This document shows positions 1 to 61,979 of a DNA stretch of 64,000 nucleotides, piece by piece. The notes under the pieces were generated by a model that had not been told where the DNA came from, ran no database searches, and saw nothing but the letters and a program-made list of their open reading frames with translations. The position numbers and the translations under genes are program-made. Location of the stretch: contig RWJK01000685.1 of the NCBI GenBank assembly GCA_004335835.1, positions 25,266 to 89,265 of the forward strand, read 5' to 3'. Source of the DNA: Scenedesmus sp. ARA3. Taxonomy: Eukaryota; Chlorophyta; Chlorophyceae; Sphaeropleales; Scenedesmaceae. The stretch's first letter is position 1, and each line of letters opens with the position of its first letter.

Positions 1-2115
1 CTGGCTGCACTTGCAGAGCTGCCACAGCCATAGGATCTGATCTGCAGCAAAAACACATAAACTAATAACAGCACAACCCGGCAGCCTGTTAGCACAGCAG
101 AAGTGCATTGCAGTTGTGGCTCTCACTCTGGGCCCCCCTCTGCTGGCTCTGGAGGGAGTGCTGCTGCCGCCGCTGCTGCTGCTGCTGCTGACGACGCGCC
201 TGTCATACACTCGCAGTGCATCATCAGACGCCCCCACACCCAGCAGCCAGGGCTTGTGCCTGCAGCAGCAGGCAGACATACACAGAATGTTACAGAACTT
301 GAGCGCACAACTACAGGCCAGCAAAAGCTGTTGCATGAGCTTGCAGTGCGCAATGTTTGCATTGCGCTTGTAGAGGCTAAAAGGACGCCTGCAGCACCAC
401 TGGTGCCAGGGGATGCGGCAGCGTCCTGCTGGGGCCAACAACAGCGTCCATGCTCTTTTTGTGCTGCCTGCTGTCCTTCTATGCGCAGCCACAACGTTCT
501 GCTGTCCACATCCCACTGCAACTTATCTGCAGTTCCACTGCAAGCTAATGCTACCCTTGCCCCTGCCCCGCTGCTGCCGCCTCACTAGGCGCTGCTGATG
601 GAGTTGGGCTCCAGCTTCACGTTCTGCTGTAACTTTTCTGTGTTTCTACGGCAGGTGTTTCTACAGCAAGCCCAATGCAACCAGTGCCCCTCTGCTGCTG
701 CTGCCGCCTCACCACGGGCTGCTGATGGGGTTGATCTCCAGCTTCAAGTTCTGCTGCAACTTTCCTGCATTTGTACTGCAAGCCAAGGCCACCCGCACCC
801 CTCTGCTGCTCCTGCTGCTGCTGCCGCCTCACCAGGGGCTGCTGATGGAGTTGATCTCCAGCTTCACGCCGTTGCGCGCCAGCTGCAGCAGCTGCCGCGG
901 CGCACCGCCCGCCTCCCGCACGTCCAGCTGGCGCACTGCAGCACAACAAAGGCAGGCAGCCGATACATACCACAGCAGTGAGGCGCAGCTGGGGTTGCTG
1001 TGCTGTGCAGCTAATTATGCATAGGGCAGACCAGCAGGTGGCCTGATGATTTGATTCAAGCCTCTCCTGCTGCTGCCCAAAGCGTTTGCCTGTACAAAAC
1101 AAAACAAACACAATCGCAGCAGCTTTGCAGGTACATATCCACATCACACGCAACAGCAGCAGCAGCCGCGTCACCTGTGCCGTCCTCGCTGCAACTGAGC
1201 AGCAGGTGGGGGTTGCCCGGCTCTGTGACGAGCTTCTTGACCCTGCTGCCGTGGTGGCTGAACACGCTGCGTGCCCCGCTGGCCAGGTCGTGCAGCCGCA
1301 CCTCTGCGTCACCCGCACAGCTGGCCAGCAGCGGCTGGCTGGAGTCGCCTGCAGGCCCAGTGTTTGGCCAGCATGCAGTGAGTGCATCAAGCTGTAGATA
1401 TATGTGGAGGTGACCTTGGCTGTGGCCTATGGGCAGTCTGCATTGAGTTTGTGTTGCGCTTGAAGTGCATGCATGCAGCGGCTGGCTGGAGTCGTCTGCC
1501 ACCCAGTGATTGGCCAGCAAAGCAAGCAAGTTACTGAATGGCACACGCATGTGGGCGTGGATATCTACTGCCTGTCAATGCAGTCTCCGGGGCTGTCGGA
1601 TGTAACTGGACGTGCTTTGTCGCGCCTAGACGGTGTATGCAACAGCTTGTGCTTTGCAGCTCGTGGCAGCCAAAGTGGCCATTCCTGTTGGTTTGTTCTG
1701 CATGTTCTGCATGTTCTGCATGTCAAGCCGTCAGCTCCAGCCCCCCAACTGAAATTCGCACTGAATTTCCCACCTGTGCCTGGCATGAACTTCACGCAGA
1801 AGATGTTGGCCTTGTGGCCCGTGGCATGTGTGGCCAGAGGGCTGCTGCTGGCCAGGTCCCACAGGCAGATGCGCGTGTCATCAGAGCCACTGGCCAGCAG
1901 AGAGCCTGCTGCACAGCGGACGTATCAAAAGTAGCAGAGTGTCACTCAGTGTCATGCAATACACATGCAATGCACAGTTGCGTGTTTCTGAGGGACACAT
2001 GTGGAGCGCGGCATACATCGTCAGGTTGCGCTGATAGCAGACAGGCAGCTTCCAGACGCCAAGTTTGCCATGTGCTCAAGAATGGCTGTTGCTGAAGCTT
2101 TGCCATCCCACACAA

Positions 2116-2146
<31 letters not shown>

Positions 2147-2333
2147 CTTACGCTACCGCTGTTCACAAATAATCTGAAAATGCAACCAGAAGCTGTCAGC
2201 AGCAAATGCTGTGCATTTTTGAGAGTCATGGGGTGCATCACAAGTAAGGCGCACCTGACTCGTTAAACTGCACGTGGTTGACACAACCTGCGCAACAAAA
2301 AGCCACCACATATCCATGAGTTCGGCTGTGTTG

Positions 2334-2380
<47 letters not shown>

Positions 2381-3764: not shown

Positions 3765-6700
3765 TCACTTGTGCTCTACCACTCCCTCAAACACCTGGAA
3801 GTAAGTGGGGAAGGTCTTGCGCGTGCAGCCGGGGTCGTTGATTGTCACTGCCACATCGCCGCATGCAGCCAGGCTGAAGGCCATGGCCATGCGGTGGTCA
3901 TCATACGTGTCGATTGCCACGCCTGACTTGAGCTGCGCTGGAGGAGTGATGACGCAGTAGTCACGGCCCTCCTCCACCTGCACACCACAAGCAGCACCGC
4001 ATGTTTTAGTGCAAAGTGCATCGTACATTTTGTTGTTATGCAGGCTGTGCTGCGCTGGAGGAGTGATGCCGCAGTAGTCACGGCCCTCCTCCACCTACAC
4101 ACACTGGCAAGCACAAGCAGCCACAAGCATCGCAGCACACATATGTTGTAGTGCGTCCAGGCAGCGCGGCACTGAAAGTCATATGAGTGTCCGACGCGTG
4201 CGCCAAGCAGGCAGCGTCGCAACGAAGGGCATACAGGGAAACGCCTGATGGCTGACCCTGTATTCCAAGCACTAGACACTGTCGCGGCATGCAAAATACA
4301 CCAGACCACGCCGCATTGCCAACCGCGCAGCTGTGTGCCCAGCTTGCCCAGCTCCGTCACGATGGCCACCACCCAACCTCGGCATGCGTTACGCCAGATC
4401 ACCCACACGCAACCTCGGCATGCGTCACGCCAGATCACCCCACATGCAACCTCGGCATGCGTCACGCCAGATCACCCTACACGCAACTCGCCGCACCATT
4501 CCCCAGCAGCGTCACCTGGCATACACTATGACACCTGATGCCTAGCGCTGTGTGCCAAGCACTGTACACCGCGCAGCATGCAGCATCAACATACACCACG
4601 CGTCAGCTCCCGCACCTGTGCTCCCAGCTTGCCCAGCTCTGTCACGATGGCCACCATGCGCTCCGTCTCCTTCACGCGCCAGTTGTACACGTTGCGGATG
4701 GCCGTCTGGCCCTGCAGCAGGCGGCAGCGGCAGCAGCAGTAGTGCAACAATGCGGCGACAGTAAGAAGAATGTAGGACCATACACATAGTCATCAACTGC
4801 CGTGCACGATACACCAGTCACATCACGATTTACCCCTGCGTCCCTCATTGCCGTACTATGCAGCAGCTGAGCCACAACACACAGAGTCTACTGCAAGTAT
4901 ACGCGGAGATGTCGAGTGCTGCGTTTTAGGGGTGGCGCAGGGTTGCCCCTGCGCCGTCAACAGCCACGGCAGGGCGAAGCAAGTGGAACTCGACAGGAGG
5001 TAGCAATTAGCTCAGCTCCATGCATCCAGAGTGTCTCTCTTGCCACGCGGGACACATATGCGCCCCTAGCAAATTGCGAGACGCCAAGACATGCGTGCTT
5101 GGGCACCTCTGAGTATCATAGGTGCCCTGATACATGCCTGGCCCCACTTACCCGCTGGCCAAACCCCCAACGCTGCTCTATGCACGCATTCTACACAAAG
5201 CGGCATACGGCACACGCAGCGCTCAGCACTCGGCCAGTGTTTAAAACCGGCTTGTACTGAGGTGCGTCCAGTTGGAGCAGAACCCAGCCCGGCAGAGCTT
5301 TTGCAAACCCTGCCGCGCTGAGCCCCTAAACACAAGCCACGGGTATCGCAGGAGAGCAGGAGAGGCATGCCAGGTGTCGTGCACCCACAGCCTCAAACCA
5401 GCAGCAGCCCTGGCATGCAGCAAGCCATTTTGCTGCTGAGCCTGTTGTGCTGAGCTGGCCCTGCTTCCCCACTGGCTGTGCCACGCAGGACGTCACCTAA
5501 CTGTCTGGAGACACATGTCCCAATCTCAAACTCAGCTCTGTGCACAACACACATACAAACAAGGCTGAGTGCACACTCCTGGAAACTTCTCTGGCTTCCC
5601 ATCCACAGCACGCTCTTGCGTGCTCACATGCCAGTTCCCGCACCTCTGCAAAGAGCGCTGCGACTGCCAGCGTCATGGCTGCATCAGGGATATCGTTGCA
5701 GTCATGGTCGATGCCCTTCAGCGGCTGGCCGAAGGCCTTGGGCCCTGTGATGGTGATGCTGTAGGGTGACCACTCCACCTTGGCCCCCATGAGGCCCATC
5801 ACCTCAGCAAAGCGCTTGTCGCCCTGCAAGCAGAGCACACAGCACACACGAAAGCATGTTGGGCATCTGAAGTATCATACAGCTGCCAGTACAGGCAGTA
5901 CGTGCGGCCTTACACTGTTCATAGCACCAGCTGCGGCTGTGGGGCAGCACACGATGCACGCTGTGCGACAGCTGCAGGCCCATGCCGCTTTGAATGAAAC
6001 CTAAGCCACTGGCCCTGCTGCCACGTTCCCCTGCAAGCGGTCGCTGCTGCGCCCTACGCTGCTGGCCCTGCTCCTTCGACTGCAGGCTGCCACTGCCACT
6101 GGCCCTCACGTGGTGACGGCCAGGCAGCAGCTGCGCCAAATCCCCTGACAACACAGGGCGCTGGCCCTAGCCTCACCCGCATGCTGTCGCTGCTGCACTG
6201 TGGACCCTGCTGCTACACCCACCTGCATGCTGTTGCTGCCTGAGCCCTGCTGTCACATGCAGCCTGTCGCTGACCCCATCCCTGCTGTCTCAGCAAAAAA
6301 CCTCAACCACTGTGCTCACCCGCATGCTGCTGCTGCCTGAGCCCTGCTGTTATAGCCTGTCGCTGCTCCTAGACTTCTGTCACAGCAACAATCCAGGCCA
6401 CGCCCTGCTGCCACGCGCACCTGCAGGCTGTCGCTGCCGCAGCCCTCCACTGTGACGGTGCCGCCTGTGATGGTGGCGCCTGCCAGGAAGTAGCTGGCTG
6501 ACGACGCGTCACCCTCCACGTACGCATCACCAGGAGACTTGTAGCTGCAGCGGAGCAGCAGCAGCAGCAGAAAGAATTAGCGAACATCAGCAGCAGCAAC
6601 ACTGACAGCCTGACAAGTGCCTCCAGTGCCACACCAACTACTCAGCAGTTGCACATGCGTCGCATCCATCTAGAGCTGGTCGCAATGCCCTAGCTCCGCA

Positions 6701-7779
6701 AGAAGACATATTACGCCATGTCCACCAGCAGGAAGCAGCAACAGATCACCATGCAACATGCCAGCAGCAAGCAAGCCAAAGCCCAACAGACCAGGCAGCA
6801 CTCACGTCTGCCCGGGCGGGATCTTCATGTGTGTGAGCCCATCCAGCTGCTGCACCACCACGCCAAAGCGCTCCATGAGCTTCACCGTCATGTCCACATA
6901 CGGCTGGCTGACCAGCTCGTCAGTGATCATGATCTCAATGCCTTCACTGCCAGTGGCCAGCGGCGCAGCCATCAGCAGTGCAGTGAGGTACTGGCTGGAC
7001 ACGGATCCGCTCAGCTGCACCTGTTGGGCAAAGATAGATTAGACGAAGTGCAGCAGGGAGAAGGAGTGTGGAGTAAGACGGTGCAAACATGCTGCGGCAG
7101 TGCTGAAAGGCATGCGTATGTGGTGCGGAGGGCATGCAGCAGGAGCGCAGTGCCGGTGGCAAGGGGTGCAGCCATCAGCAGCGCAGTGAGGTACTGGCTG
7201 GATACTGAGCCACTCAGCTGCACCTGTTGGGCAGAATGGTATGAACCAGCAGCAGGAAGGAGCGTGGAGTGAGGGGGAGGGACCCCATGATAGATCTCCG
7301 TGACTGCGCGCCAGCCAGGATGGACTCTTAGGCATGCAGCAGGGCCGCACCAGCCCACACCTTACTAGTATGGAGCCACAACCACACACAATTGCTTGCC
7401 ATCCTTACTCCACATCCGCCTCGTTACAACTAGAAGCAACTCCAGACACTTGCCAGTGCTGCAGCCTCACTTCCAGCAATTCCAGACACTTGCTGGCGCT
7501 GCGCCCTCACCTTGCCGGAGGGCAGGCCCTGTGCATTGATCTCCACAGGCGGGCAGCCCGTGCCCATGCTGCACTTGGCATCAACACCCAGCTGCACCAG
7601 CCCGTCAACTAGGTCCTGGATGGGCCGCTCCCGCATGCGTGCCACGCCATCAAGCACAAACTTGCCGCGGCCTGCTGCTGCCACTGCTGCCGTCAGCGGG
7701 CGCATCGCTGTGCCTGCGTTGCCCAGGAACAGCTCGCCACCCTGCACGCAGCAGCAGCAGAAATAGAACCAGCAGAAAT

Positions 7780-7812
<33 letters not shown>

Positions 7813-9615
7813 GGGAGCAGGATAAGGCCCTCAGCATTGCCTGCCCACGAGACTACTGCGCGACCCCTGAGACAGGTCAAGGGTGCATCAGTGCAAAGCC
7901 AGCCAGCATGCTGCGGCTGACATGCTAGGCAATAGGGATGCACAGCAAGTGTGCTGCCACAGCAAGCAATGACGACATGCGATGCTGTGGCAGATGCTGT
8001 CCAATGTGCTGCATGATGTGCCTGCTGCAGGCACACCAAGCACAAGCAGCAGCTGGTGCTGCCGCAAACCGAACAGCAGCAACAGCAGCAGAATTATGCT
8101 CACATCTGCAGGGAATCGGCCGCCGCAGCCGTGCACCACCATCACTCCCTCCTCCCAGTTCTCCTCCAGCTTGATGCCCAGCGCCTTGAGCGCGCCAGCC
8201 ATGTACCTGATGTCATCGCTATCCTGCAAGCGGCAGCAGCAGCAGCGATGTGCCCAACACCTGCCTGCTTATTACTTTACACGCATCAAGTGCTTGATTG
8301 TCGTCTTGGCTAGGTGTCGAAGAGACATCACGCGCAGTTCAGATGCGCCACTGACACTGATGCTATCTCAGGCTGTCCGTAGCTGGCAACTGCTGGTGAG
8401 GTTGCCAGCAAGCAAGCACAGCTGCAAACGTGAGTTGAGCTGAAGCAGCTTGCACCTGTGGTGCTGCAGCCACAGCTGCTGGCTGCTGGACCTGTGTGGC
8501 TGGCTCCTGGCAGCTGCATGCATCTGTTACTGACGCCATTGCCACGCCCAAGCTGCTGCTCCACCAGGTGTGCACGGCAGATCAGCTGCCAGCTGCTGTG
8601 AGATGACAACCCTCCAAAGCTTTGCGCTGGCAAATGAGTTTGGAATGCTGCCCCCAAAGGATTGATGCCTCGCTCTTACAGCTGCTGGAAGGCAGCCCTT
8701 TCGCTGCCCTTTGCTGGCACCAATGTCCACTCAGCTACCAGTAACAGAATAGGATTGTACGGTCCAAGCACCAGCAGGTTGCGCACGACTGTGGTGCCCT
8801 CAACCCCTCGCTGCTTTGTGCTGGCCAACTACACCTAGCTAGCCTGCCAGAATACTTGCACGCACCAGCAGGTTGCGCACGACTGTCGTGCCCTCAGCCA
8901 GCGCTGCCAGCAGCAGGATGCGGTTGCTGAGCGACTTGCTGCCCGGCAGCTTCACTGTGCCTGAGATGGTCTTGATGGGCTGCACAGTCAGCTGCTCCAC
9001 TGCAGGAGGGAGGCGTGAGGGATATACAAAGGCAACAAGAGTGAAATAAGTCAGCAATAAGGGGAGCAGTGGAGAGTCCGGCCTGCCTGCTGCATGGGAA
9101 GGCGTCACTGCAATTAGACCCGGCTGGGGGGCCCCTGTCCAGACTGCTAGCCTGCTGCTGCCAGTGTGGTGACACAAGCAATTCCATCAGCTATGAAGGA
9201 GATGGCGGGGTGCCACAGCCCAGGTTGGGTGGGGTAAGACTTGTGAAGCACAGCATTGCAGGAATTAAGCTGGTGCTACCAGGCAGCAAGTACACGCTTT
9301 TGACAACACACAGCAAGCACACTGCTGCTGCTGCCACACCAGTTTCACTGCATGCTTAACAGCGAGAAGGGGTCCAATTCGATGGTGAAACCTACATTTC
9401 TCTGCTGCTGCAGCTGCTGCCACGACCATTGAGGCTGCCCTCTGGGTCCGGCCTGCTGCCCTTGCTAGCTGAGGTGCCAGGGCGGCAACTGCTGCCTGGC
9501 GCTGCTGCACTGCATCATTGGTGCGTGAAGCAATCCTGGATGATACAAGCTGCCTCTGAGACTGCCTGGCTTGTGCAGTCCCAAGCTTTCGGGAGGAACT
9601 GTGCAGGGACTGCAT
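3765..9615 (-). CDS. EPSPS: 5-enolpyruvylshikimate-3-phosphate (EPSP) synthase, plastid precursor
   Basis: Joins shikimate-3-phosphate and phosphoenolpyruvate to give EPSP, the sixth step of the shikimate pathway in plastids. Nine exons keep frame and give 510 aa, normal for a plant precursor: 9396-9615, 8866-8999, 8104-8223, 7511-7741, 6806-7020, 6421-6544, 5644-5823, 4616-4711, 3765-3977. Residues 1 to about 74 are rich in Ser, Arg, Gln and Ala and end in an Ala run, as expected of a chloroplast transit peptide. The core shows [31 protein letters not shown] (the PEP/glyphosate loop, wild-type plant form), [41 protein letters not shown] and [16 protein letters not shown]. Frame agrees with plant homologues at each junction. 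Introns hold many copies of exon edges (listed separately). It is head-to-head with the DiT gene. Confidence 0.97.
4049..4100 (-). repeat. Echo of the EPSPS exon 9 acceptor edge
   Basis: Encodes [15 protein letters not shown], almost identical to the true exon 9 start (3934-3977, [15 protein letters not shown]). It lies about 110 bp upstream in intron 8 and is preceded by an AG. The reading then runs off into unrelated sequence, so this is a duplicated acceptor edge rather than an alternative full exon. Confidence 0.9.
4331..4370 (-). repeat. Echo of the EPSPS exon 8 donor edge
   Basis: Minus-strand reading [14 protein letters not shown] copies the exon 8 end (4616-4655, [13 protein letters not shown]). 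It lies some 285 bp downstream of that donor, in intron 8. Confidence 0.85.
4374..4484. repeat. About 36-bp minisatellite, three units, EPSPS intron 8
   Basis: Three consecutive units share CTCGGCATGCGT, then ACGCCAGATCACCC, with small differences. The array directly abuts the exon 8 echo. Confidence 0.9.
6010..6380 (-). repeat. Degenerate echo array of the exon 6 donor edge filling EPSPS intron 6
   Basis: The exon 6 end reads on the plus strand as a CACCTGCAGGCTGTCGCTG core next to a CCCTGCTGCCAC intron segment (6400-6450). Decayed versions such as CACCTGCATGCTGTTGCTG and GCCTGTCGCTG with CCCTGCTGTCAC recur every 50-60 bp through this intron. Four or more units are visible, though the boundaries are soft. 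Confidence 0.65.
7157..7236 (-). repeat. Echo of the EPSPS exon 5 acceptor edge
   Basis: About 80 bp at roughly 85-90% identity to 6953-7030. It includes the ATCAGCAG..GCAGTGAGGTACTGGC exon part and the CACCTGTTGGGCA intron part. It lies about 205 bp upstream of the used acceptor and also carries an intact AG acceptor. Confidence 0.9.
7775..7812 (-). repeat. CTG array (sense strand) near the EPSPS exon 4 acceptor
   Basis: Pure CAG repeat on the plus strand, so CTG on the gene's sense strand. It sits 35-70 bp upstream of the exon 4 acceptor, where a polypyrimidine tract would be expected. Confidence 0.85.
8768..8802 (-). repeat. Echo of the EPSPS exon 2 donor edge
   Basis: The plus-strand stretch AAGCACCAGCAGGTTGCGCA and the following bases repeat the exon 2 end and its donor (8862-8895, coding TTVVRNLL). 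It lies about 95 bp downstream in intron 2. Confidence 0.85.
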
Positions 9616-10188: not shown

Positions 10189-11574
10189 ATGGCTAGCCTT
10201 CTCAGTCGAAGGACAGCAGTGCCCTGCCGCCAGCCTGGCTCGTTTGCAAAGGCAGCTGGACTTGCACCAAGGCCTGCAGTTGCTGTGCGGTACGCCTCAA
10301 CCTCCATCCGCTGTGCTTGCCCAGCACTGCTGTGCATTGGCAGCACCCACGTCACCACATGACTTGCTACAACATACAGTATGTAGATGCATCTCGCCTG
10401 CTGTTATCATGCTGTTGTTCTCAACTTGTTGTGGGTAACACTGCACGCACGGTTGACTGCATCACACCAGCACGCGTATGCTTGCACACCTCACACAAAA
10501 AACTACGCAGCCCAGCCAGTCCCACTCACCCACTTCCCACTCTGCATGCTCCTGCTTTTCCTGCCAACCCACTCACTCGCTGTGCAGTGCGGCAGCCCAG
10601 CAGCACCTACAGCATGCAGCCAGCAGCCTCAGCAGCAGCAGCAGCAGCAGCAAGCCCCTGCGGCCCAGCCTCAGCAGCAGCAGCAGCAGGCGGCCGCTGC
10701 ACGTCGCAGCCAACGCATCAGCAGGCGCCCTGCCAGCGCAGCCAGAGCAGCCCGCCGCACCAGCAGCACCCGCCCTGCAAGGCATGAAGCTAGTACCAGC
10801 CGCAATCGCTGTTGCATTTGGCTGCCTGGTGAAGTTTTTGATCCCTTCGCCAGCTGGCATCACTCCTGAGGCCTGGACACTGTTCAGCACCTTCCTGAGT
10901 ACTATTCTGGGCCTGGTGGTGCAGCCGCTGCCTGTGGGCGCGTGGGCGTTCTGTGCGCTGTGCTGCGTGGTGGCCAGCGGCGCGCTGCCGTTTGCAAAAG
11001 CGCTGGGTGCCATGACCAGCGAGGTCATCTGGCTCATCGTCATCTCCTTCTTCTTTGCAAAGGCGAGTGCAGTAATGCATCAGTATACTTGTGTACCAGC
11101 TGTTAGTTTTTTGTATGTACAGCGTGCGTATGGCTGATCCTGCTGCAACCTTCAGTAGAAGCCTCTTGTTTTGTATAATTAAATTAGGCATGGAGAGCAG
11201 TATGGCTGTGGTGATTGCATGCCTTGTTCCGGCTGCCTTGTAGTACAGCTGGCACTGGCACACGATGGCGCTGCAGGCCAGCCTCCTGGAGCTCACCACG
11301 TGCAGCTGCTGCCCCTGCCAGGCGGCGGATGCGCTGGCCGGCAGGCAGGGGCAGCAGCAAAGGCACAAGCAGTGAAACGCGTCAGTGTCACGACTGGGCC
11401 ACAGCCACACCTCAGTGGTGCCTGACTTATCACTCTCCATGTTGCAATCCCAAGCATCTCCTCATGCTGCTGCTGTGCCTCCAGCAGGGCGTTGAGAAGG
11501 CCGGGCTGGCTTCTCAACATCTGTGACAACCTGTCCACAGACAGGACATATATCTTGACTCATTTGTGTCCTCA

Positions 11575-11635
<61 letters not shown>

Positions 11636-14600
11636 GGATTTGAGAAGACTGGGCTGGGTGAGCGCATCGCCAACATCTTCGTGGCAGCCATGGGCAAGTC
11701 CACGCTGGGCCTGGCCTACGGCCTGAGCATTGCAGAGCTGTTCCTGTCGCCAGCGCTGCCCAGCACCACAGCCAGGTGCGGCCAGCTGATTGGTTGGCAG
11801 AGTGATGTGCGTGTTTCATGGTTTGCTATACACGCAACAAAACGACATAATCATGCATGCTTCACGATACGTTCCGCCCTTGTGAACAGCTGGTGCAACT
11901 CCTGTCAGGTCTGTGCAGCGCGTGCATGATCCTTCCCTACCTCTGCAGCCAGCTCGGTAACTGGGACCTGGCCAACTGCGCTCCGCCTGAGATGGAGCTT
12001 ACATCTGTAGCTGTTATCTGTATCTCTTGGCACTCGCAGGGCTGGTGGCATCTTCGTGCCCATCATCAAGTTCCTGTCCAAGAGCGTCAACGGCGACCCC
12101 GAGACCGGCGGCCGCAAGAAGATGGGCGCCTTCCTCATGCAGTCGCAGCTGCAGCAGAGCAGCTACAGCAGTGCACTGTTCCTCACCAGCGGCGCGCAGA
12201 ACCTGCTGTGCCTCAACCTGGCGGCGGAGCTAGGTGAGGCTGCATGCTGTGTTATTTCAAGTTGTTGCCTGCTTGCTTGCTTGCGTTATCTGGGGCTGAT
12301 TTGCTGCCAACTACTATCACGTTGATGACGACAAGCCTGGCTGGTGCTGGTGGTGGGGCGGTGCCCCACATCTGAAGCCAGCAGCCTGCTGTGCCTGAAC
12401 CTGGCGGCAGAGCTAGCTGAGGCTCCATGTTCTGCCGTGTGATGTTTTGATATATTGTTGCTTGCCTCCTTGTCCGGGGCTAAACCTGCTGTGCCTGAAC
12501 CTGGCGGCAGAGCCGGGTGAGGCTTCATGTTATGCTCTTGCTGGCTTGCTGGCTTGTCAGGGGCTGAACCCCTCATGCATTTTGGTGTTGAACATAAGCA
12601 TGGCTTGTGTTTGTAGCGTGATGGTGCCTCGTCTGAAGCCAGCAGCAGCAACACAACGTTATGAGAGTTGACTGAGCTGCTTACACCTTACCAAGCGGTC
12701 CTGCTGCAGCAGGTTCATGCATCACGATGCCAACACACAGCAGCACCTCCCAACAGCTGGCTGCAGGCACAACTATGGAACTCAACTTGCCCGTGCTGAA
12801 TGTGCTGTGCAGGTGTTGTGGTGCCTGATGCGTGGACCACCTGGTTTGTGGGCTGCCTGCCTCCTGCCATCCTGGGAATGGTCATCACACCCATCCTGCT
12901 GTTCAAGATGTTCCCGCCCGAGGTGAGTAGACTTGTCTAATTACACCATGTTATCTAGGCCGGCAGCTGCGCTTGTCAGCTGCTTGCAGGAATCGCTCTG
13001 TATGTATGCAGTGCATGCTTTGCAGCTGGCGGCTGCAGCGGCAAGCAGCTTCCACCTCAACATACAGCTGGCACTGCAGCTGCTGTAGTCGTCGGGGTTG
13101 GCACCCGTGCGGTGCCTTTGCTGCAACAGCATGTCGAACCCCAAATCGACCAAAGCCCCGCATCACAACCCCTGGTTCTCCACACACTTACTATGTCGTC
13201 ACAAGAATCACACCCTGATCTGAAACGCACACAGATCAAGGAGACCCCTGCGGCGCCCGCGCTTGCCACGCAGAACCTGGCCAAGATGGGCCCCATGTCA
13301 GCCATGCATTGAAAAGCATAAGTGCACAGTGCCAACCCGCTGTTCAACCTGCAATGCAGCTGGTGCCACAGTTACCAAGCACTGAAGCACCTTGCAGACA
13401 CTGCTGTGCTCCACACCCGGCACTAACAATACATTAACTCCACCCTGCACGCAGATTAAGGAGACGCCTGAGGCGCCCACGCTGGCCAAGCAGAACCTGG
13501 CCAAGATGGGACCCATGTCAGCAGGCGAGAAGATCACACTGGCCACCATCAGCGGCGCTGTCGTGCTGTGGATGTTTGGCGACGCCATCGGCTGCCCCGC
13601 GGTGCTGGCAGCCATGCTGGCGCTGGGCACGCTGCTGGTGACAGGTGCGTAGCTTGAGATCACACGGCAATGTTGAATTTACTCTGCTGCCTTGCTCGCG
13701 GCGGCACCAGCCATGCTGGCGCTGGGCACGCTGCTAACAGGTGCGCAGCAGGCTTGCACAAAATGCACTCGGATCACACAGCAATCCTGCAAGCAGCTGC
13801 AGCCATTTTACTGGCAGCTGGGCACGCTGCCGGTGACAGGTGTGCAGCATGCACTCAATGCTGCACTCAGGCAGCTCTCCTGTAAGCAGCTGCAGCAACG
13901 GTACTGCACTGCACACCAGTCATAATGCAGCAGCATACCAGTCATAATGCAGCAGCCAGATGCTTTGCAGGCTGCAGAGGGGTAAGCTGTTGCAACTTGT
14001 GGCGTGTGCACAGCTTCCAGGGACACCAGCTCTTGCAGCTGCACCTTTCCCCCTTCCATCGGCAATGCATGATATGTCAGCGCATTACGGTGAACCTTTG
14101 AGCGGCACATACAGGATCTGACCTCCCTTTCGCTGCTTGGTGCCATCCTGTGGCTTGCCGCTGTGGGCCCCTCGCTGCATCCCGCCAGGCGTGCTGACGT
14201 GGCGCGACTGCCAAGACAAGCATTCGCTTCCAGCACAATCCTTGATGCAGTGACTGCTGGTGCCCACAAGCCAGCTGATCTGACTGGTGCTGCCTCGCTG
14301 TCCTGCTGCTGTGTCCTCCCTCTGCTGCCAGGCGTGCTGACGTGGCGCGACTGCCTGGAGTACACGCCCGCCTGGGATACCCTCATCTGGTTCGCCATCC
14401 TCATCAGCATGAGCAACGGGCTCAACGAGTCGGGCCTCATCAGCAGCTTCGCCGGCGTGGTGGGCAACCAGCTCAACGCACTCAACCTGGGCTGGCAGGT
14501 GCGCGGCGGCATTGTGTGTTGTGTGTCATCAGTTCTGCTCACGTTTCAGAGCCGTTGAATATCAACAGTCGCACATGGCAAGCTGCCATGCAGATGTGAC

Positions 14601-15579
14601 AGCCGGCTGTGGCTGTTCCGAGTGTTGCATGCTTAAGGTAACAAGCAGCGGGGCAGATGAGCAGCAAAGGAGCCAGCAGCACGGCTTGCAACAGCATGGA
14701 CACACCAACGGTTGTGCATTGAGTCGGCTGGCGAGGCTCGATCATCAGCAAGCCATGCCAACGGCGCACATGCAGCTCTTGCTAGCTGGGAACAACGGGC
14801 TGTTTGACACTGTGCACAACCGTGCGTGCTACGCTGACATATGCCTTCGTTGTTCCTGCCTGCTGCCACCCTACTTTTGCGTTGCTGCCTGCAGCCGGTG
14901 TTCTTCATCCTGCACTTTGCCTTCTTCGCGCTGCACTACCTGTTCGCCAGCCAGACGGCGCACATTGGCGCGCTGTACGCGGCATTCCTGGCCATGATGC
15001 TTGCATCAGGTGCGGCGGTTACGTATGCTGTTGTTGTTGTTGTGCATCGGCGGTCGCACTAGCTCGCATCTGTGGCTGCACCCAAGCATTGCCCTTCCAA
15101 TCGCTCACGTGGTCATTTGTGCATGCGATTCGAAAACTTGCACCGCCACGCGCCTGCGTTCATGCTCTGTGCTCTGGGTGCCTTTGGCATGCAGCAGTTT
15201 CACCTTCGTCAGTCGGTTCTGCCTGCTCTTCTGGCTGCCTGGAGATGCTTTCCGCGGGCATCAACAGCTGCCTGTGCTGCCGTGCAAGTGCACTTGCCTT
15301 TCTTTCCGTTCAACCAACACGCTGCTCCCTCTCTCTGTTTCGTCTCGCCGCTGCCGCGCAGGCTGCCCTGGCATGCTGTCCGCGCTGTCGCTGGCCTACA
15401 ATGGCAACCTGTTTGGCGGCATCACGCACTTTGCCAGCGGCCAAGCGGCCATCTTCTACGGCTCAGGCTTCAACAGCCTCTCAGAGTTCTTCCTGTACGG
15501 AGCAATCTTCGGCTTCCTCAGCCTGGCACTCACACTCGGCGTGGGCTGGCCCTGGTGGAAATTCCTGGGCTGGTTCTAG
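10189..15579 (+). CDS. DiT: Plastid 2-oxoglutarate/malate translocator (DiT type, DASS/SLC13 family)
   Basis: Inner-envelope dicarboxylate exchanger that links plastid ammonia assimilation to cytosolic carbon skeletons. Nine exons give 569 aa, like plant DiT1: 10189-10289, 10588-11062, 11636-11775, 12040-12233, 12813-12922, 13455-13644, 14332-14498, 14895-15009, 15362-15579. Residues 1 to about 80 form a Ser/Gln/Arg-rich transit-like region (MASLLSRRTAVPC, later a Ser run). The rest follows plant DiT in order: EVIWLIVISFFFAK, GFEKTGLGERIA, MGKSTLGLAYGL, PSTTARAGGIF, SALFLTSGAQNLLCL, WDTLIWFAIL, HYLFASQTAHIGAL, FGGITHFASGQAA, WWKFLGWF. Many hydrophobic helices are evident. Intron 2 must be GC-AG to keep frame. 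Exon edges are echoed in introns 2, 4, 5 and 6 and after the stop. Whether it is orthologous to DiT1 or DiT2 cannot be decided here. Confidence 0.95.
11481..11510 (+). repeat. Echo of the DiT exon 3 acceptor edge
   Basis: Reads CCAGCAGGGCGTTGAGAAGG, coding GVEKAGLA, against the true GFEKTGLG at 11636. It lies 150 bp upstream, beyond the CTG array. Confidence 0.8.
11576..11629 (+). repeat. Long CTG array next to the DiT exon 3 acceptor
   Basis: An uninterrupted run of about 17 GCT/CTG triplets on the sense strand ends only a few bases before the CCACAG acceptor. It replaces a pyrimidine tract. Confidence 0.9.
12381..12545 (+). repeat. Two echoes of the DiT exon 4 donor edge
   Basis: Copies of the exon 4 end (12200-12245, coding NLLCLNLAAELG plus donor and intron start) occur at about 12381-12430 and 12483-12545. 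Both keep CTGCTGTGCCTGAACCTGG. The first has lost the GT donor (AGCTAGCTGAGG); the second keeps GGGTGAGG. Similarity continues into the intron (ATGTT..TGCTTGC). Confidence 0.9.
13220..13305 (+). repeat. Echo of the DiT exon 6 acceptor edge
   Basis: About 80 bp coding IKETPAAPALATQNLAKMG, closely matching the true exon 6 start at 13455 (IKETPEAPTLAKQNLAKMG). It is preceded by a CACAG that could act as an acceptor. It lies 230 bp upstream. Confidence 0.9.
13697..13845 (+). repeat. Two echoes of the DiT exon 6 donor edge
   Basis: Copies of the LAAMLALGTLL-TG end plus GT donor occur at about 13697-13746 (ATGCTGGCGCTGGGCACGCT, then CTAACAGGTGCG) and 13806-13845 (CTGGGCACGCTGCCGGTGAC, then AGGTGT). 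Both lie downstream of the used donor at 13645. Confidence 0.88.
14183..14215 (+). repeat. Echo of the DiT exon 7 acceptor edge
   Basis: GCCAGGCGTGCTGACGTGGC and the following CGACTGCC repeat the start of exon 7 (14327-14355) exactly, 143 bp upstream. The acceptor AG is intact. Confidence 0.9.
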
Positions 15580-15654
15580 ATGGCAGTTCCTCCGATGTGA
15601 CGGGAGTCTCTGCACTTTGTTGGGGCAGGCAAGAGCTCCTAGAGTGATTCTGGG

Positions 15655-15951
15655 CTGGAGCTCATGGGCTGGCCCTGGTGGAAGTTCCTGGGCTGGTTCT
15701 AAGCCGGACAGTTCCTGGGGTGACAAACAACTAACCTGGGCGGCGGCTGGCAACTCCACGGTTGTGATGTCACTGTGCTACATCTTGTGCATGGTGGTGC
15801 TGTTGCTTAGGGTGATTAGGTGTGCTGCGTGGCAGTGTGCAGTGGATGGAGGCAAAACGTGGTGCAGCAGCTGCAGCTGTTCGGCTTCCTCAGCCTGGCG
15901 CTGACGCTCGGTGTGGGCAGGCCCTGGTGGAAGTTCCTGGGCTGGTTCTAG
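15655..15951 (+). repeat. Echoes of the DiT terminal exon end after the stop codon
   Basis: The last codons (GWPWWKFLGWF-stop, 15541-15579) recur at about 15663-15702, ending in TAA, and at about 15885-15951. The second is preceded by a copy of FGFLSLALTLGVG and ends in TAG. Echoes are thus not limited to introns. Confidence 0.92.
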
Positions 15952-19210: not shown

Positions 19211-19246
<36 letters not shown>

Positions 19247-40710: not shown

Positions 40711-40752
<42 letters not shown>

Positions 40753-43278: not shown

Positions 43279-43323
<45 letters not shown>

Positions 43324-45620: not shown

Positions 45621-45652
<32 letters not shown>

Positions 45653-47624: not shown

Positions 47625-47661
<37 letters not shown>

Positions 47662-50481: not shown

Positions 50482-53265
50482 TCATGTTGCTGCCACCATG
50501 GCGTGCCCGTGCCTGCGCCTGCCCTTGTGCCCGCGTGCGGTCAGGTCGTGCAGCACCTCCTCAGCCTCCGCATGCATCTGCTCGTGGTCAGGCAGCTCAC
50601 CCTCCTTGACCAGCCGCGCAGCTGCAGCACGCAGCGCTGATAGGTTGCTGGGCAGCGCCTTGAAGAAGCGCACCTGCAACGGTTGCAACAAGTGTGCAGC
50701 AAGGACCATAGATCAAGGGCTGCATGCAAAGCCACAGGTGATGGGATGCAAAGGCGGCTTTTGCCAAGTGGACATGTGCAGTAAGATATGATGAAAGGCT
50801 GCTGGGCAGTGCCTTGAACCAGTGCACCTGTGGTCCAAAACATCCACAAGACTGACACGCAGGACATGCCGGGTTACCAGTGAGTGGATAAGAAGGGTGA
50901 TCTGGCAAGATGCACGAGGAAAAAGAGCTGCACGCAACAATGACATGAAATCGACTGCTAGCGCAATAAAAATGCAGGTTCGAGCGGTGCAGTTTCGGAC
51001 AAGGCCGCAAGGGGCATGGTCGGCACTCACCAGCGCCTTGGCGCCCCTCCTTGAGCATAAGGCCCACACTGCGCTGATTCATAACTAATGCAGTGACTGG
51101 CGGAACATACATCCTCATGCTGTGCTGCCCTGCCAGTGCAGCTGTCACTCACCAGCGCCTTGGCGCCCTCCTTGAGCTTGCGGTCCACGCTGCCGTCAGG
51201 CTGCCACGCGTACAGCCCAAACTCCATCAGGTACCCCGCATTCCACTCAAAGTTGTCCACCTGTGGCAGCAGCAGCAGCAGCAGCCGCAGCCGCAGCCGC
51301 AGCAGCAGCAGCATGAGTTGACAATGCAGCTGGCAGTGGACGTTGCTGTTGCCTAGCATGAGCCAGGTATCCAGGTCATTGCATGTTCGCTGTAGGTCTG
51401 CACTGAGGACAGAGCGGCAGGGAGTGCTGTGGAGCTGGGGAGCCGCTTTGCTACTCCTGGCAATTAGCTCATGGCAGCTGCATTGACTTCATGTGCTTGT
51501 GGTGTTGCATGCTGTGGCATTTGTAGTGGATCAGCAGCTAGCTCGTGCCCAACACCAACCCACCAGAGTCCAGTAGTAGAAGCCGCGCACGTCAGCGCCA
51601 TCAGCAATGGCACGCAGCATCTGCAAGCAGACAAGCGGAAGGCCTCAGCAGATGAGAACAGCTCATTCCAGGCTGGCACTGCTACGCTGGGGCTCTGGCC
51701 AACTACACTGACTAGGGGTGATGTTTTGGCGTGACTGCTGCCTGAGCCAGATTGCCAAGGACACGACGCATACGCAGAGAACTGCCTAGCATGTATAAAG
51801 CGCGTGGCGCTGCCACTGGTGTCAAGCAAACTAAGAAACCAGTTGCTAGCACCTGTCGCATTTGTGCTGCTTGGTGCTGGAGCCTGGTTGGCCATGGCCA
51901 GCAGTTGGCCATGGCCAGCATCGAGTTGGCCAGCAGTTGGCCATGGCCAGCATTGACTGCTGTGCTGGTAATCAACGAACTGGCCCTGCCTGCTCACCGC
52001 GCGCATGTACTTGTCGATCATGGTGGCCCGGTTCTTGTCGCTTTTGTCGGCAATGCCGGTCTCGGTGATATAGATGGGGATGCCGTACTGGTTGGACTGC
52101 AGCAGCAGCAGCAGCAGCGGCGGCAGCAGTGTTGTTGTGAGCAGGGTAGCACACATCAGCGGTACGCTGCTTTGCCGCAGTACGGAAACACTAGCCTGCA
52201 GCTATCCCATGGCCACCCCGATGCTGCATGCGCGCCTCGCACAGGCCGTCTACCAAACTGAAGCTCAAACAGCCTGTCCATAGCCAACTCCGAAAAAGGC
52301 AGTATCCATGACCTTCACAGCTAGCCATGCGCAGTCTCACCTGCATTAGCGCCTCGTACAGGCCGTCCGCGTAGATGGGGTAGTACATGTCCGTCATCAC
52401 CTCGCCAGGCAGGCACCACGGCTTCATGTACCACGTCACCACAGACCTGTGACGCATAGGCGGGCAGCATGCGGCAGCAGGCGTGGTCAGACGCACGCGT
52501 TTGCCTAGAGGAGGATGACATACCGCATCTGCAGGCACACAGGAGCTGCCAGGGCTGTTCAGCAGCAGCGCATACGAATTCTTGGTGAGCACAGCGTGTT
52601 GTCTGCGCCCCCATTTCATGTACAACGTCACCGCAGACCTGTGACACACAGGCAGCACCAACAGCACCCCCCACCTGCTGTAGTAGTTGACCCCGAACCA
52701 GTCGCAGGGCGGCTTGCCTCCCGGGTGCTGCCACTCCAGCCACTGCCCCAGCAGCGGCACCTTCCAGGTGAATTTGCCGGTGAGCATCCACTGGTGGATC
52801 AGCTCGTAGCCCCACCAGTAGTTCATCCAGTCTGCTGCATAGCTGTTGATGTAGAGCAGGCGTGGTGGTTCAGAACGGCAGTTTTGTGTGGGATGTGGTG
52901 CAACAGATGGGGCATGAGAAACAGCAGCATGTGAGTGAGGTTGTAAAGCGTCACATGAACTGAAGTGACCAAGCAAGTTTGCACAACTGACATTCGTTTA
53001 CAGGCTGAATGACATAGGGCTTGGTTGCTGCTAGCGCTCCCTCTCTGCCAAGGATACGCGCCCCAGCAGTAAAGCTGACGATGCACGTGCGTGCCAACAG
53101 CAAGCAAGCAAGCAGGCGAGCAAGCAAGCAGGCAAGTGAGAGAGCAAGGTGCTAGTTCAACCAACAGCAGCAGCAGCAGCAGCAGCACTCACGCTGCCAG
53201 CCCCCGCAGCAGGCGGGGCCCTGTGGCCAGGAAGGTGATGTGGTGGTGCACCAGCCCCACCTGGC

Positions 53266-53299
<34 letters not shown>

Positions 53300-56159
53300 C
53301 GAACAGCAGCAGCACCAAACAAAGATTGGACTTGTGTGCGGATGCACTGTTCAGGTAACAGTTTGAGGCGTTTGCGGCAACACTGCAATGCGCTAACAAC
53401 CAAAGTTATGGATGCCTGCTCAAGTTCGAACCCTCCTGTTCAACTGCAAGCTGTTTGCTTCGCCCTGACACAATCAAACCCGATCACTGGATCAACTGAT
53501 ATGTCTGGCTCTCATTGTATACGTGTAACCAGTGCACGGCTTGCCCATCTGGCGGATCTGGCGGAGCTGCCGCACATCACCCTGACAAACAAGTAGTTCA
53601 TCCATGCTGTTTAGGATGAAGCACTTAGCAGCTCACTTGCAGTAAATTGCTGATTGCACACATAACAATGTGGCCGCGCAGCATCCCTACACACTCAGAC
53701 ACGTAGTGCTTGATCTACTGATTCTGTGTTCAACTGTCCCTACATACTGTTAAGCATTGCACCGCTTGCTCACCTGCAGGCTCTTGCCAATAGCTGTGCG
53801 CTTGATGGCCTCATATGCCTCGCAGTGCGCCTGCAGCTTGTGCATGACCACCTTGCCCGCAGTGATGCAGGCCAGAATCTTGCCCGGCGGGTGCATACCA
53901 GTGATCCAGCCCAGGAACATCGCGCACTGCCAGAACAAAAGACGGGCGCAGCAGAATGCAGCAGAGGAGTGTGACAAGCGCAGCAATTGGGCACAGTAGT
54001 CAATGTGAAACAATAGTGAAGCAGCCTGGGAACATGGCGCACTTCAGCGGCAGACGATATGCGGCAGCGGCGCATTAGAATGCGGCTGTGGTTACTTTGG
54101 GAGAGCACAGTGATCGTCATGCTACTGGATTAGTACATGACAATCAAGACATTGCTGTTGCTGGGGGTGAAGCACCACCCACCTTTTGCTGAATCAATAA
54201 CTTTTTCTGCATGCGGTGGCGCTGAGATGAATTTACACGCATGGACTGCGATGAAACCTGCTGCTGCTCCTGCTGCTGATGCTGCTGTGGCTGCTGCTAG
54301 ACCTTCTGCTTGTGAGCCCGTTGCTGCTGAGCTCGCTGCTGCTGGACCTGCTGCTGCTGAGCCTGCTGCTGCTGCTCTGCCGCTGCCACGCACCGTTGGC
54401 TCGTTGAAGGTGGCCCAGAAGGTGATGCGGCTGCCAAACAGCTCAATCGCCTTGAGTGACCAGGCCACAAAGTGCTGGATGTTCTCTGCCTTCTCAAAGC
54501 CCCCTAGGTCCTCAAACCACTGCAAGCATTGCCACACACAGCACGCACGGTTAAGCAACATCAAAACGGCAGCTGAAGGCAGGCAGTTTGAAACAGGTAC
54601 GAGGCTGCAGCCTTGGTTTGTTTGGCTGCAGCAGGGCCTGGTGTCAATATACTTTTAGCTGTTGCTCACAAGCTGGCATGCAGTAGCACTGGTTGCCTGC
54701 CCTGCAGCTGTGGCTCTGCATCAATGCACAGCTACTCGATGTGCGGACTGCGCATTCGCCTGGCATGTGCTGTGCGCTGATTATGTGCAGACCAGCTGCA
54801 GCCGGATGGTGCCACTTGGCTGGCTGCTGCCGGCAAGGTTTATCACATGTGCAGCTGCCGGTGCCAAACAGTGATGCAGTAGGCTATACTGCTGCTGCTG
54901 CTGCTGCGGCGGCTGCTAGTCCTGCGCACCTGCCGGTGCATGAAATACAGTAGGCTACGCTGCTGCTGCTGCGCACCTGCGGGTGTGTGAAGTGGTGCAG
55001 CGTGGCGTTGGGCTCGATGCCTGCTGCCTCCATGGAGTCCAGGATGGCATGGTACCTGCAGGACACATGGCAGTGCCAACACCCCGCAGGCAGCATCACC
55101 ACCAAGGGCACCACATACCCAACTGCAGCACTGAAACGCAACATTGCTGCACTGCTTGAAGCATATATGCTGCTGCTGGTGCTTGCAGGACAGGCAGCCG
55201 GGTACTGCAGCAGCCGCTGCGCAGCCGCACCTTGCCACTGCGTCCATGTCTATCTCTCCCTTGCGGGGCTCGATGCGTGCCCACTCGATGGACAGCCGGA
55301 AGGCGTTGCAGCCAGCCTTGGCTGCAAGCTCCACATCCTCCTCGTACCTGGTGACAGGTGACAGGTTGAAGTTCAAGAAATGTTGAGTATGACCACATCA
55401 GGAGCGAAGGTACAGGAAGGTACAGGTCCACAGACAGGCATGCAAGCAACACATGCCTTCAGGCGAGCACAGCCAGCACTGAATGAAGGTGCCTTGCAGT
55501 GCGAAAGGAGACAAGGCAAGGAGCCGCAGCAGTAGTGGCATTGCCTTGTTGCGTTGCGCTAGGTGGACAGCATCTCCTGGCCGCATGTCCTGCCTGCGCT
55601 CCTTGCAGCCAATCTACACAACTGCTGCATGGCAAGCAGCTGCCGCGCTAATAACAAGCGCTGCTGCGCTGCGCACCTGTTCCAGGTGTCTGGGCAGGTC
55701 TGCAGTACGCTGTGCTTGCCACTGAAGCGCTTGAAGCCAAACGGCAGCGCCTTGAAGGGGAAGTTTGACTTTATGAAGTTGGTCCAGTTTGAATCGTCGT
55801 CTCCCGAGTTTTGCCACATGGATATGGCCACTCCCTTGTGGAACACCTCCCCCTTGCCTGCAGGAACAAGAAAGCAGGTGCGCAGGTTGGGTGGAGAAAG
55901 GTGGGTCGAAAGGAAGGCCAGCACGCCTTGGCACAGCTGCTGCTTCTGAGGGTAGCAGAGCATATGCCCTCGCATGGTTGAAGAGGACAGCTGCTTGCAA
56001 CAGTGCAACAAGGATTGTAAAAAACATGCGGATGTCTGCTGCTGCATGCCAGCACAGCAGGGCTGTACTGCAAAGGAATTGCTTGCCTGTGCCATCGTTA
56101 GACGCCAGGCTTCCGTCCCCGCTGCTGCCCATACTAGTTCTAGATCGAGTGGTAACCAT
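50482..56159 (-). CDS. Glycoside hydrolase family 1 protein (beta-glucosidase-like)
   Basis: Thirteen exons keep frame: 56069-56159, 55677-55857, 55231-55347, 54977-55055, 54394-54519, 53774-53926, 53193-53260, 52675-52842, 52341-52446, 51998-52096, 51564-51620, 51153-51260, 50482-50673; 514 aa. Exon 1 could instead end at 56087 with a GC donor, in the same phase (508 aa). GH1 motifs occur in order: GVAISMWQNSGDD, CNAFRLSIEWARIEP, LHHFTHPQWFEDLGG, WATFNEPT (acid/base Glu), GLVHHHITF, DWFGVNYYSR, PIYITETGIAD (nucleophile Glu; usual TENG is TETG), YYWTLVDNFEW. It should cleave or transfer beta-glycosides by the retaining mechanism; the substrate is unknown. A signal peptide is not evident (start MVTTRSRTS), so the location is uncertain. 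The basic C-terminal tail ends RGHKGRRRHGHAMVAAT. Several exon edges are echoed in introns. Confidence 0.92.
50793..50835 (-). repeat. Echo of the GH1 exon 13 acceptor edge
   Basis: Minus-strand VHWFKALPSSLSS copies VRFFKALPSNLSA at 50673. It lies about 150 bp upstream in intron 12. Confidence 0.88.
51026..51065 (-). repeat. Echo of the GH1 exon 12 donor edge
   Basis: The plus-strand CACTCACCAGCGCCTTGGCG plus following CCCTCCTTGAGC matches 51146-51178 almost exactly, including the donor. It lies about 120 bp downstream in sense. Confidence 0.9.
51886..51953. repeat. 17-bp minisatellite in GH1 intron 10
   Basis: The unit GTTGGCCATGGCCAGCA is present three times intact plus one short unit lacking the CATGGC part. 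The unit contains the palindrome TGGCCATGGCCA. Confidence 0.92.
52215..52262 (-). repeat. Echo of the GH1 exon 9 donor edge
   Basis: Minus-strand LVDGLCEARMQ copies YADGLYEALMQ at the end of exon 9 (52341-52380). It lies about 115 bp downstream in intron 9. Confidence 0.85.
52600..52660 (-). repeat. Echo of the GH1 exon 9 acceptor edge
   Basis: Minus-strand CACAG followed by SAVTLYMKWG copies the exon 9 start (CACAG, SVVTWYMKPW, 52446). It lies about 195 bp upstream in intron 8 with the acceptor intact. Confidence 0.87.
53267..53299 (-). repeat. CTG array (sense) at the GH1 exon 7 acceptor
   Basis: CAG run on the plus strand directly upstream (in sense) of the CTGCCGCCAG acceptor. Similar arrays stand before exons 10 and 12. 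Confidence 0.88.
54021..54050 (-). repeat. Echo of the GH1 exon 6 acceptor edge
   Basis: Minus-strand CAMFPGC copies CAMFLGW at the exon 6 start (53926). It is a short, decayed copy about 110 bp upstream. Confidence 0.65.
54870..54960 (-). repeat. Echoes around the GH1 exon 4 donor
   Basis: CTGCGCACCTGCCGGTGCAT repeats the donor edge CTGCGCACCTGCGGGTGTGT (54969-54988). A linked ATACAGTAGGCTACGCTGCT segment is itself repeated at 54886 in variant form. Confidence 0.6.
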
Positions 56160-59600: not shown

Positions 59601-61979
59601 GGCAGCCTGCTGCAAGGCTTTTTCCAGATGTGGTCTGGCCCGCTGTCAAACTGGGCGCTGGGTAAGAGCAGGTGAGGCGATGACTGGGATGTGTGCTAAG
59701 CTGGGCTTGAGATTGATGTCATGATGCATCATCTACACTGCTCACTCATGACAGCAGGCAGCTGGTGTCGTGTGCAGGCACCCACACGCTCCGTCAACCA
59801 CAGCAGCTGCCAACAGCTTTGCAAGCAGCCCCTTACCATCAAATCGGTGCCTCTCGTGCGCCATGCACTATCACGCTAGACTTCTACGCAGAAGCGCATT
59901 GACCCTGTAATGCAAGGACACCTCATAACACTAGCTGCCTGCATGCCTGTGGCACGTTACCCTGCTCTTCACGATGTGCTGCTGAATGCAGGGACATGCA
60001 CGCTGACCTGTGGCGTGGTGCATGGGCCCCTGGAAGCTTGTTCAATCGTCACATTTTCAGCTTGCATGAACACTGTGACGCCTGAGGCACTCCTCTCTGC
60101 GCGCCTGTGGTACTCCGCCCTGCATGCCTGTGTCACCCTCCCTGCATGCAAGTGTCACTCTCCCATGCCCTTGCTGCTGAATGCAGAGACATGCATGCTG
60201 ACCTGTGGCGTGGCACATGGGCGCCTGGGAGCTTCGCCAAGCGTCACATATTCAGCTTGCAGGACCCATTTGATGCCAGCGACTGCCCAGCACGTGCAAT
60301 CGGCAGCAACGCCAACAACAACGGCGGCACGGCAGCCTTCATTGCATACATGTTCAGCGGCAGCAGCCGAGTGATGCAGCGCTACTGCGACGAGTGCAAA
60401 GCAGCTGCAGATGCAGCAGCAGCAGGAGGTGCAGAGGCTGGAGCGATTCACCAGGCATGGCACCTGCTGGTTCCACACCTACAGCAACACCTGCTTCGGC
60501 ACAGCAACAACAGCAGCAGCAGTGGTGCACCAGCACAACAGCCCCCTCAGCAGCAGCAGCAGCAGCAGCAGCTCTGCAAGGTGCTGGGCTGGCTGTTTGG
60601 CGCACAGGCAGTGCTGCTGCTTGGCTCCTGGCAGCAGCAGCAGCAGCAGCAGCACGACCACATCAAGGTGGCACCCCCGGGCCTCTCATGGGCCCAGCAC
60701 CCTTTCCAGCCGGAGCTGCTGGCAGCGCTGCAGCAGCAGATGTGCCAGCCTAGCAGTCAGCAGCGGCCAGAGCATGTGCTTATGTGGTTAGTGGAGCAGC
60801 TGGGAGCAGCGCTAGATTCCGCAAGGAATGTGCTGTGCCTGGCGCAGCTGAGCTTGCTGTCCAAGCAGAGCATTGCAGCGGCAACCACAGCAAGGACTGA
60901 GAGCCGTGGGGCCCGCCGCAGCAAGGCTGCAGCGGCGGCAGCAGCTGTTGGGGCAGCCGCTGCAGACGGTGGGCAGGAGCAGGAACTGCAGGCGCCTTTG
61001 AACCGCGCAGCGCGGCGCAGTAAGGCTGCAGTGGCTGCAGCTACTGCTGGGGCAGCTGTCGGAAACGGTGCGCAGGAGCAGGAACTGCAGGCGCCTTTGA
61101 CAGCAGGCACGGCAGACGCGCACCAACAGCAGCAGCTGCAGAATGGTGAGCATGACTCTGCGCAGCAGCAGCAGCAGCAGCAGCATGGTTTGGAGGTGCT
61201 GCTAGACGGGCCGCCGCTGCCACAGCTGGATGTGCAGCTGTCTTCTGTGCAGAAGGGGCTGTCTGGCGAGCTTCACCAGTTGCGCTTCAAGCTGCGCAAG
61301 CTGCCAGCTGAGTTGACCTCGCCCAAGCACCTTCCCAAAGCTGCTAAGAAGGCAGTGCAGGAAAGCATGCAGCTAGTAGTGGGGCGTCTGCAGCAACTGC
61401 AGGATCAGCACCAGCAGCAGCAGCTGCAAGCGGAGCAGGCAAGCAGCATTGTTGTGCAGTATGGCTTGATGGCTGTGCTGCAGCAGCATGGCTTTGTGCC
61501 GCTGCTAGAGGAGTGGGGCTTCATCAAGGATGGTGTGCTGTGGCAGCAGCTGCTGCTGCAGCTGCCCTCACAGCCTTCTAGCAGCCAAGCAGCACTTGCA
61601 GCAGCAGCAGCAGCAAGCAGTAACGGTACGCAGCCAGTGCCAACAACAGATGCGGTGCTATGTCCTGCGGCCCACATGCCTACTAATTCTGGGGTGGAGC
61701 ACAGGGTAGCTGCTGCTGGCACTTCTGCTGGCGATGCAGCAGCTGCTGCTGACAGCAGCCGCCCCAGCAACATGCTGCTAAGGCTGCTGGGCAAGCACTG
61801 TCCAGCAGCAGGGCTGAAGCTGATGTATAGGACGCTCTCGAGTGCTAACAAATGCACGCTGCAGGCAGCAGGTGGGCGCAAGGTGCACCCGGCAGCAGCA
61901 GATGCTGTGAAAGCAGAGGCCCTGCAGCTGGACGACTGGCAGTGGTTCAGCATAGACCCACATGAATTTGTGCAGGAGC

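Follow-up and report, generated by a model that had tools for sequence, protein, structure and literature searches.

Does the 64,000-nucleotide stretch of Scenedesmus sp. ARA3 DNA analysed here (referred to as the window) carry, inside its introns, copies of the exon edges that adjoin them, and by which process would such copies be made and maintained? An earlier note on this stretch had described decaying tandem copies of splice junctions in five unrelated genes. Exon edges were taken from gene models that all came from our own spliced protein-to-genome aligner, which gave three models in the window:

3771-8994, minus strand: EPSPS, 8 exons, spliced alignment
10787-15576, plus strand: DiT, 8 exons, spliced alignment
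50485-56132, minus strand: GH1, 13 exons, spliced alignment

The protein templates behind the EPSPS and DiT models are sequences that we take to be those of the two proteins. DiT intron 1 has an apparent GC donor at 11062-11064. The GH1 protein from the window is identical to the T. obliquus record at 499/499 residues, CCT-zeta, on another contig, agrees with T. obliquus at 531/532 residues and CCT-beta agrees across 456 aligned residues; judged by these proteins, the window is from T. obliquus or a very close strain. The assembly containing the window comprises 87.3 Mb in 1567 contigs, and the published draft of UTEX 393 comprises 108 Mb in 1368 scaffolds (PMC5255914).

Eleven loci were analysed in total: EPSPS, DiT, GH1, six HSP70 loci, CCT-beta and CCT-zeta. 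The HSP70 genes were modelled at six contigs with E. coli DnaK as template, leaving out at least four further matching contigs, and the two chaperonin genes were located via a Pfam family. Loci outside the window were picked on match strength, independently of visible copies; the two chaperonins used were search rows without sign of copies, while two other rows had such signs. Terminal and zero-length pieces of the spliced alignments were taken out ahead of counting. The ends of contigs C74 and C1411 (L032 and L033) share 954 identical overlapping bases inside one HSP70 gene and represent an unmerged join, by which one intron (2 edges, no copy) stands twice among the 200 edges. A self-trained gene finder was dropped, as it recovered 41/52 known edges and 16/29 exact exons and called CTG-rich stretches coding.

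With a copy accepted at a score of at least 44, an intronic direct copy was found at 42 of the 200 exon edges in the 11 loci (scores 44-184), while none of 178 tests on the wrong side of an edge gave one. Lowering the threshold to 36 adds two copies in the first nine loci (36/160), and the counted copies of CCT-beta are 8 of 11, two others having scored 42 and one (score 82) lying at the edge of a removed terminal piece. In EPSPS, DiT and GH1 together, 13/52 edges have a copy in the adjoining intron, with scores of 44-122; the same 13 edges scored 24 at most against non-adjacent introns of their own gene, and among 160 edges of nine loci none exceeded 38 against introns of other genes. The copies in the window, together with one set in a 3' flank and two regions with candidate edges, are as follows:

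4046-4102, minus strand: copy of the EPSPS exon 8 acceptor edge (source 3929-3985; 94.7% identity, spacing 117)
4326-4371, minus strand: copy of the EPSPS exon 7 donor edge (source about 4611-4656; GT reads CT; place from offsets)
6205-6267, minus strand: copy of the EPSPS exon 5 donor edge (source about 6403-6468; further copy at 6005-6061; place from offsets)
7148-7233, minus strand: copy of the EPSPS exon 4 start (source 6945-7030; 9/10 exon differences at third codon positions)
8765-8805, minus strand: copy of the EPSPS exon 1 donor edge (source 8859-8899)
11465-11509, plus strand: copy of the DiT exon 2 start (source about 11617-11657; lowest accepted score, 44; place from offsets)
12385-12429, plus strand: copy of the DiT exon 3 donor edge (source 12202-12246; another copy at 12485-12535)
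13227-13302, plus strand: copy of the DiT exon 5 start (source 13447-13522)
13708-13749, plus strand: copy of the DiT exon 5 donor edge (source about 13609-13653; another copy at 13799-13851)
14184-14212, plus strand: copy of the DiT exon 6 start (source 14327-14355; 29 bp identical)
15880-15962, plus strand: 3'-flank copy of the DiT coding end with its stop codon (source 15508-15590; shorter copy at 15665-15701)
50792-50830, minus strand: copy of the GH1 exon 13 start (source about 50638-50676; place from offsets)
51024-51072, minus strand: copy of the GH1 exon 12 donor edge (source 51146-51193)
52615-52653, minus strand: copy of the GH1 exon 9 start (source 52423-52461)
516-868, minus strand: array in the WDTC1-like region, two or three units of about 120-127 bp each, whose ends resemble donor sites (candidate edges)
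59935-60082 and 60138-60277, plus strand: near-tandem pair in the TUTase-like gene (candidate edge)

Thus, of the five genes named earlier, EPSPS, DiT and GH1 do carry exon-edge copies, and the WDTC1-like and TUTase regions contain near-repeat pairs at candidate edges. The earlier figure of more than 20 instances in the window was not reproduced with verified edges: blastn gave 27 direct pairs less than 2 kb apart in the window, against 24 at all greater distances, and not all of the 27 lie at edges, as illustrated by a tandem pair at 38838-39239 (about 196 bp, 82% alike) without evident link to an exon edge. Two further observations concern repeats in the window. A long reading frame of the TUTase region contains about two 99-bp units (33 codons each) at 60917-61100, an in-frame tandem duplication, and two stretches about 300 bp apart at 20016-20463 match stretches of contig C683 that lie 440 bp apart, at 73-75%, possibly reflecting a paralogue.

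Regarding chance, 47 near repeat pairs were found in nine gene models, of which 29 join an edge-spanning to an intronic member, 12 an exonic to an intronic member, 5 are intronic only and 1 is of another kind. Under random placement (400 trials, nine loci), the edge-spanning class averaged 13.1 pairs and never exceeded 23, and the intronic-only class averaged 18.0 and never fell below 9; the ratio of edge-spanning pairs to edge-spanning plus intronic-only pairs is 0.85, with a null mean of 0.42 and a null maximum of 0.68. In 26 pieces of 10 kb analysed without gene models, 184/203 direct repeat pairs are less than 1 kb apart. Among 94 repeat blocks (260 kb, of which 60 kb are the window), 35/40 strong donor sites common to both copies lie about 20 bp or less from the 3' end of the block; common acceptor sites are less concentrated, with 44/116 similarly close to the 5' end, CAG being frequent here. 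The exon-edge copies are therefore real in this assembly and commoner than chance. Their enrichment at exon borders over random placement holds in nine loci, they extend beyond the window to HSP70 and CCT genes on other contigs, and acceptor-edge copies lie upstream and donor-edge copies downstream, all as the earlier note had proposed. Its description of each copy as an exon edge plus adjoining intron is accurate for the edge and less so for the intron, the matched share of which is small, with a median of 6.5 bp over the 42 copies and 4 copies reaching the 20-bp limit that the search design sets on intron reach. The copies consist mainly of exon.

Local tandem duplication is probably the origin of these copies, as had been suggested from the start. 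They are in direct orientation, lie near their source and have a unit size like that of tandem pairs in which the whole unit can still be recognised: the spacing from source to copy is 94-285 bp (140 bp or less in 24/42), and 34 full-unit pairs, defined as those in which the repeat fills 85% or more of the distance between its copies, are spaced at 73-258 bp, 24/34 of them at 91-128 bp, a comparison that is not fully independent as the full-unit list holds overlapping pairs of one array and some edge arrays. Inverted copying was set aside: in the three window genes there are 0, 15 and 21 pairs of inverted arms, all CAG/CTG-rich but for one weak pair (51299-51335 and 51472-51508, 70% complementarity). 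On the interior side, the flanks of 34 modelled pairs have no similarity (mean z -0.22, 0/34 above 2), an abrupt end that resembles a tandem junction. The intron flanks of the same 34 pairs retain some similarity (mean z 1.06, 10/34 above 2), as would follow from an earlier duplication of the intron part and its later divergence; duplication of the whole unit including its intron part is visible in an array of CCT-beta, leaves a weak signal in these 10/34 pairs and is unrecognisable in the rest. The earlier suggestion that the process enlarges introns agrees with the longer introns found where copies are present (median 479 against 289 without them), a comparison that is partly circular.

What becomes of the copies after duplication is less simple. 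The exon parts are 95-100% identical in 14 pairs, and there the match extends 2-20 bp into the intron under the 20-bp limit (8 bp or less in 10/14), several bases of which the splice consensus alone could supply; beyond this, the flanks are mostly hard to align, with weak similarity in most pairs and clear similarity (z above 2) in the minority noted above; a comparison with a same-intron null, which includes windows overlapping the flank itself and is used as support only, agrees. The two DiT copies of the stop-codon end also end near the coding boundary, so what seems to matter is where coding sequence stops, not the splice junction as such. In the modelled genes, mismatches number 36, 32 and 94 at first, second and third codon positions, a third-position excess of 2.76 (bootstrap 2.00-3.92, with 1.7 or less in 0.16% of resamples). 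A looser set gave 115, 73 and 178 mismatches and an excess of 1.89 (1.49-2.45) for 57 of 72 pairs, the others having failed limits of length, frame or similarity, and may hold pairs of two copies without their source. CpG context was rejected as the cause of the excess, with changes at 6/97, 6/69 and 46/118 first, second and third positions in that context, a labelling of context that depends partly on the mismatch itself. Frameshifts occur in 6/42 copies, and 4/42 have lost the splice dinucleotide.

One account, that of the earlier note in essence, is that tandem duplications over splice junctions undergo plain neutral decay and that the enrichment at edges reflects detectability through the constrained partner. 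The spacing, the side rule and the fresh full-unit copy in CCT-beta agree with it, as do the rarity of intron-only pairs (5/47), which faster fading predicts, and the looser codon test. Nevertheless, first and second positions have changed by about 5% (68/1319), which would lead us to expect flanks about 90% alike, yet these mostly resist alignment, and the third-position excess in the modelled genes also speaks against it; we consider this account rather improbable. The earlier image of decaying echoes therefore stands as regards duplication, but not as regards simple decay of both parts: the plain decay picture is incomplete, and the exon part may owe its likeness to renewal, to copying with sharp boundaries or to selection. 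The last would apply if the copies were functional coding or splicing elements, such as alternative exon edges, in favour of which stands the third-position excess in the modelled genes. Splice dinucleotides, however, have changed at 4/84 sites, a rate like that of first and second positions, and this, together with the frameshifted copies, makes selection look unlikely; in addition, spacing is a multiple of three in 17/42 copies where 14 are expected, and by eye the interior ends have no evident donor or acceptor. We regard a function of this kind as very unlikely.

The reading we prefer, at a probability of roughly one half, is tandem duplication followed by exchange or conversion that has the constrained exon as its anchor and so keeps the exon part alike. 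A local duplication process would yield tandem copies, mostly of about 95-140 bp; where the unit contains a coding edge (the start or end of an exon and, for one gene, the end with the stop codon), the functional site would keep its use, and the spare copy in the intron or 3' flank would leave the protein unchanged and be tolerated. The intronic part of the unit could then diverge freely, while the functional exon, being constrained, would provide lasting homology at which slippage, unequal exchange or conversion might be anchored. Exchange through the exon would renew the copy and leave out flanks that no longer match, and an exchange mosaic followed by loss of one copy would place an old flank beside a fresh exon part, the usual arrangement among these pairs. 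Exchange or conversion, and not selection on the copies, would thus maintain the likeness of the exon parts.

The clearest trace of such exchange is in CCT-beta, where an exon (position 3999 of the reverse-complemented L045) is present three times, each time 117 bp from the next. The middle copy equals the functional copy in its intron flank and exon, and its interior flank equals that of the first copy bar one base, a mosaic of the sort that exchange through the exon block makes. This array appears to fit duplication plus exchange, and it is the one clear array from which we infer the mechanistic step; arrays of at least three copies occur at other sites as well. Some results count against renewal. 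In 71 pairs without gene models the interior flanks are not clean (mean z 0.74, 12/71 above 2). A neutral copy should, after renewal, have a third-position excess of about 1.7 at most, by our own estimate from codon degeneracy, and the observed 2.76 is thus at odds with neutral renewed copies. Exchange partners may include other alleles, and exchange with diverged alleles would explain the excess; against this, a DNA search, in which only the best candidates were scored, gave no second EPSPS copy, by which a second EPSPS gene was also rejected as source of the exon copies. A further possibility, rather less likely than not, is that coding edges act as standing recombination anchors, so that a duplication containing an edge would persist, with renewal and repeated amplification by way of the exon block (between alleles too), and constrained exons would pump copies into their own introns and drive intron growth in part of the genome.

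Diverged alleles might also enter through the assembly, if two haplotypes had been joined in series around introns. The allele-like differences in the modelled genes (third positions) would suit such an artefact, a relative is called likely diploid (PMC7955037), and the assembly of strain DOE0152z is almost double in size (PMC5552973). The overlap of 954 bases between two contig ends, the concentration of copies in some loci and gaps of 50, 141 and 192 N in the sampled loci, two of them flanked by copies of array units, point in the same direction. The N runs in question are at L025 9659-9800 and L026 7729-7779, each with copies of one array unit on both sides. On the other hand, arrays contain at least three different versions, some copies are frameshifted or have lost the splice dinucleotide, the scored EPSPS candidates included no second copy, the window is free of N and, judged by eye, the junctions seem to have no common stretch at which an assembler could have joined them. 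An assembly artefact is accordingly an unlikely cause of the copies.

Renewal through the exon does not account for the uneven spread over genes, which counts against it. Six loci (EPSPS, DiT, GH1, HSP70 of C272 and C1075, and CCT-beta) have copies at 41/122 edges, against 1/78 in the other five (HSP70 on C74, C1411, C1383 and C590, and CCT-zeta), a grouping made post hoc with the counts already known. Expression, genome compartment or assembly quality may perhaps underlie this unevenness.

That introns can change through tandem duplication of splice sites is known, mostly from single cases; here, about one fifth of the examined edges have a copy. Since differently aged copies lie side by side, their gain, decay and effect on splicing become measurable in one alga. 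The limit at the coding boundary suggests that exon constraint shapes which duplications persist, which bears on intron length, and the resemblance of the copies to exons is a warning for gene prediction. No earlier description of such exon-edge copies was found in the titles and beginnings of abstracts that searches of open-licence literature listed.

Tandem genomic duplication is reported as a source of intron gain or change for the potato RdRp (PMC4974935) and in Drosophila (PMC2891723). These cases have in common with the present one a local duplication that includes coding sequence and splice signals, whereas the algal copies lie inside existing introns beside the copied edge and no new intron was seen in the examined cases. 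Where introns arise from a duplicated AGGT exonic segment, the donor edge of the new intron falls in one copy and its acceptor edge in the other; in the algal pairs shown here, the copy lies within the intron, next to its source edge. Introners (PMC9860276) are likewise reported to involve the introns of several genes, but differ in that dispersed similar introns were not found for the EPSPS region, the part to which this comparison applies. A DNA search with that region returned, besides itself, 14 short matches and no dispersed intron family; a single trinucleotide-repeat stretch accounts for 10 of these matches. In NAGNAG-type tandem alternative splice sites, duplicated splice signals lie close together. 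The algal copies likewise place duplicated splice signals next to each other, but with a spacing near 120 bp and with exon sequence copied as well. Minisatellite turnover and concerted evolution are marked by units near 100 bp, changes in copy number and homogenised blocks, all of which have their likeness here, and possible signs of copies renewed from the functional exon, as in concerted evolution, are one mosaic array and the short intron reach, within one assembly. In contrast to minisatellites, it is chiefly the coding part that stays alike in this alga, and the anchor is a constrained exon.
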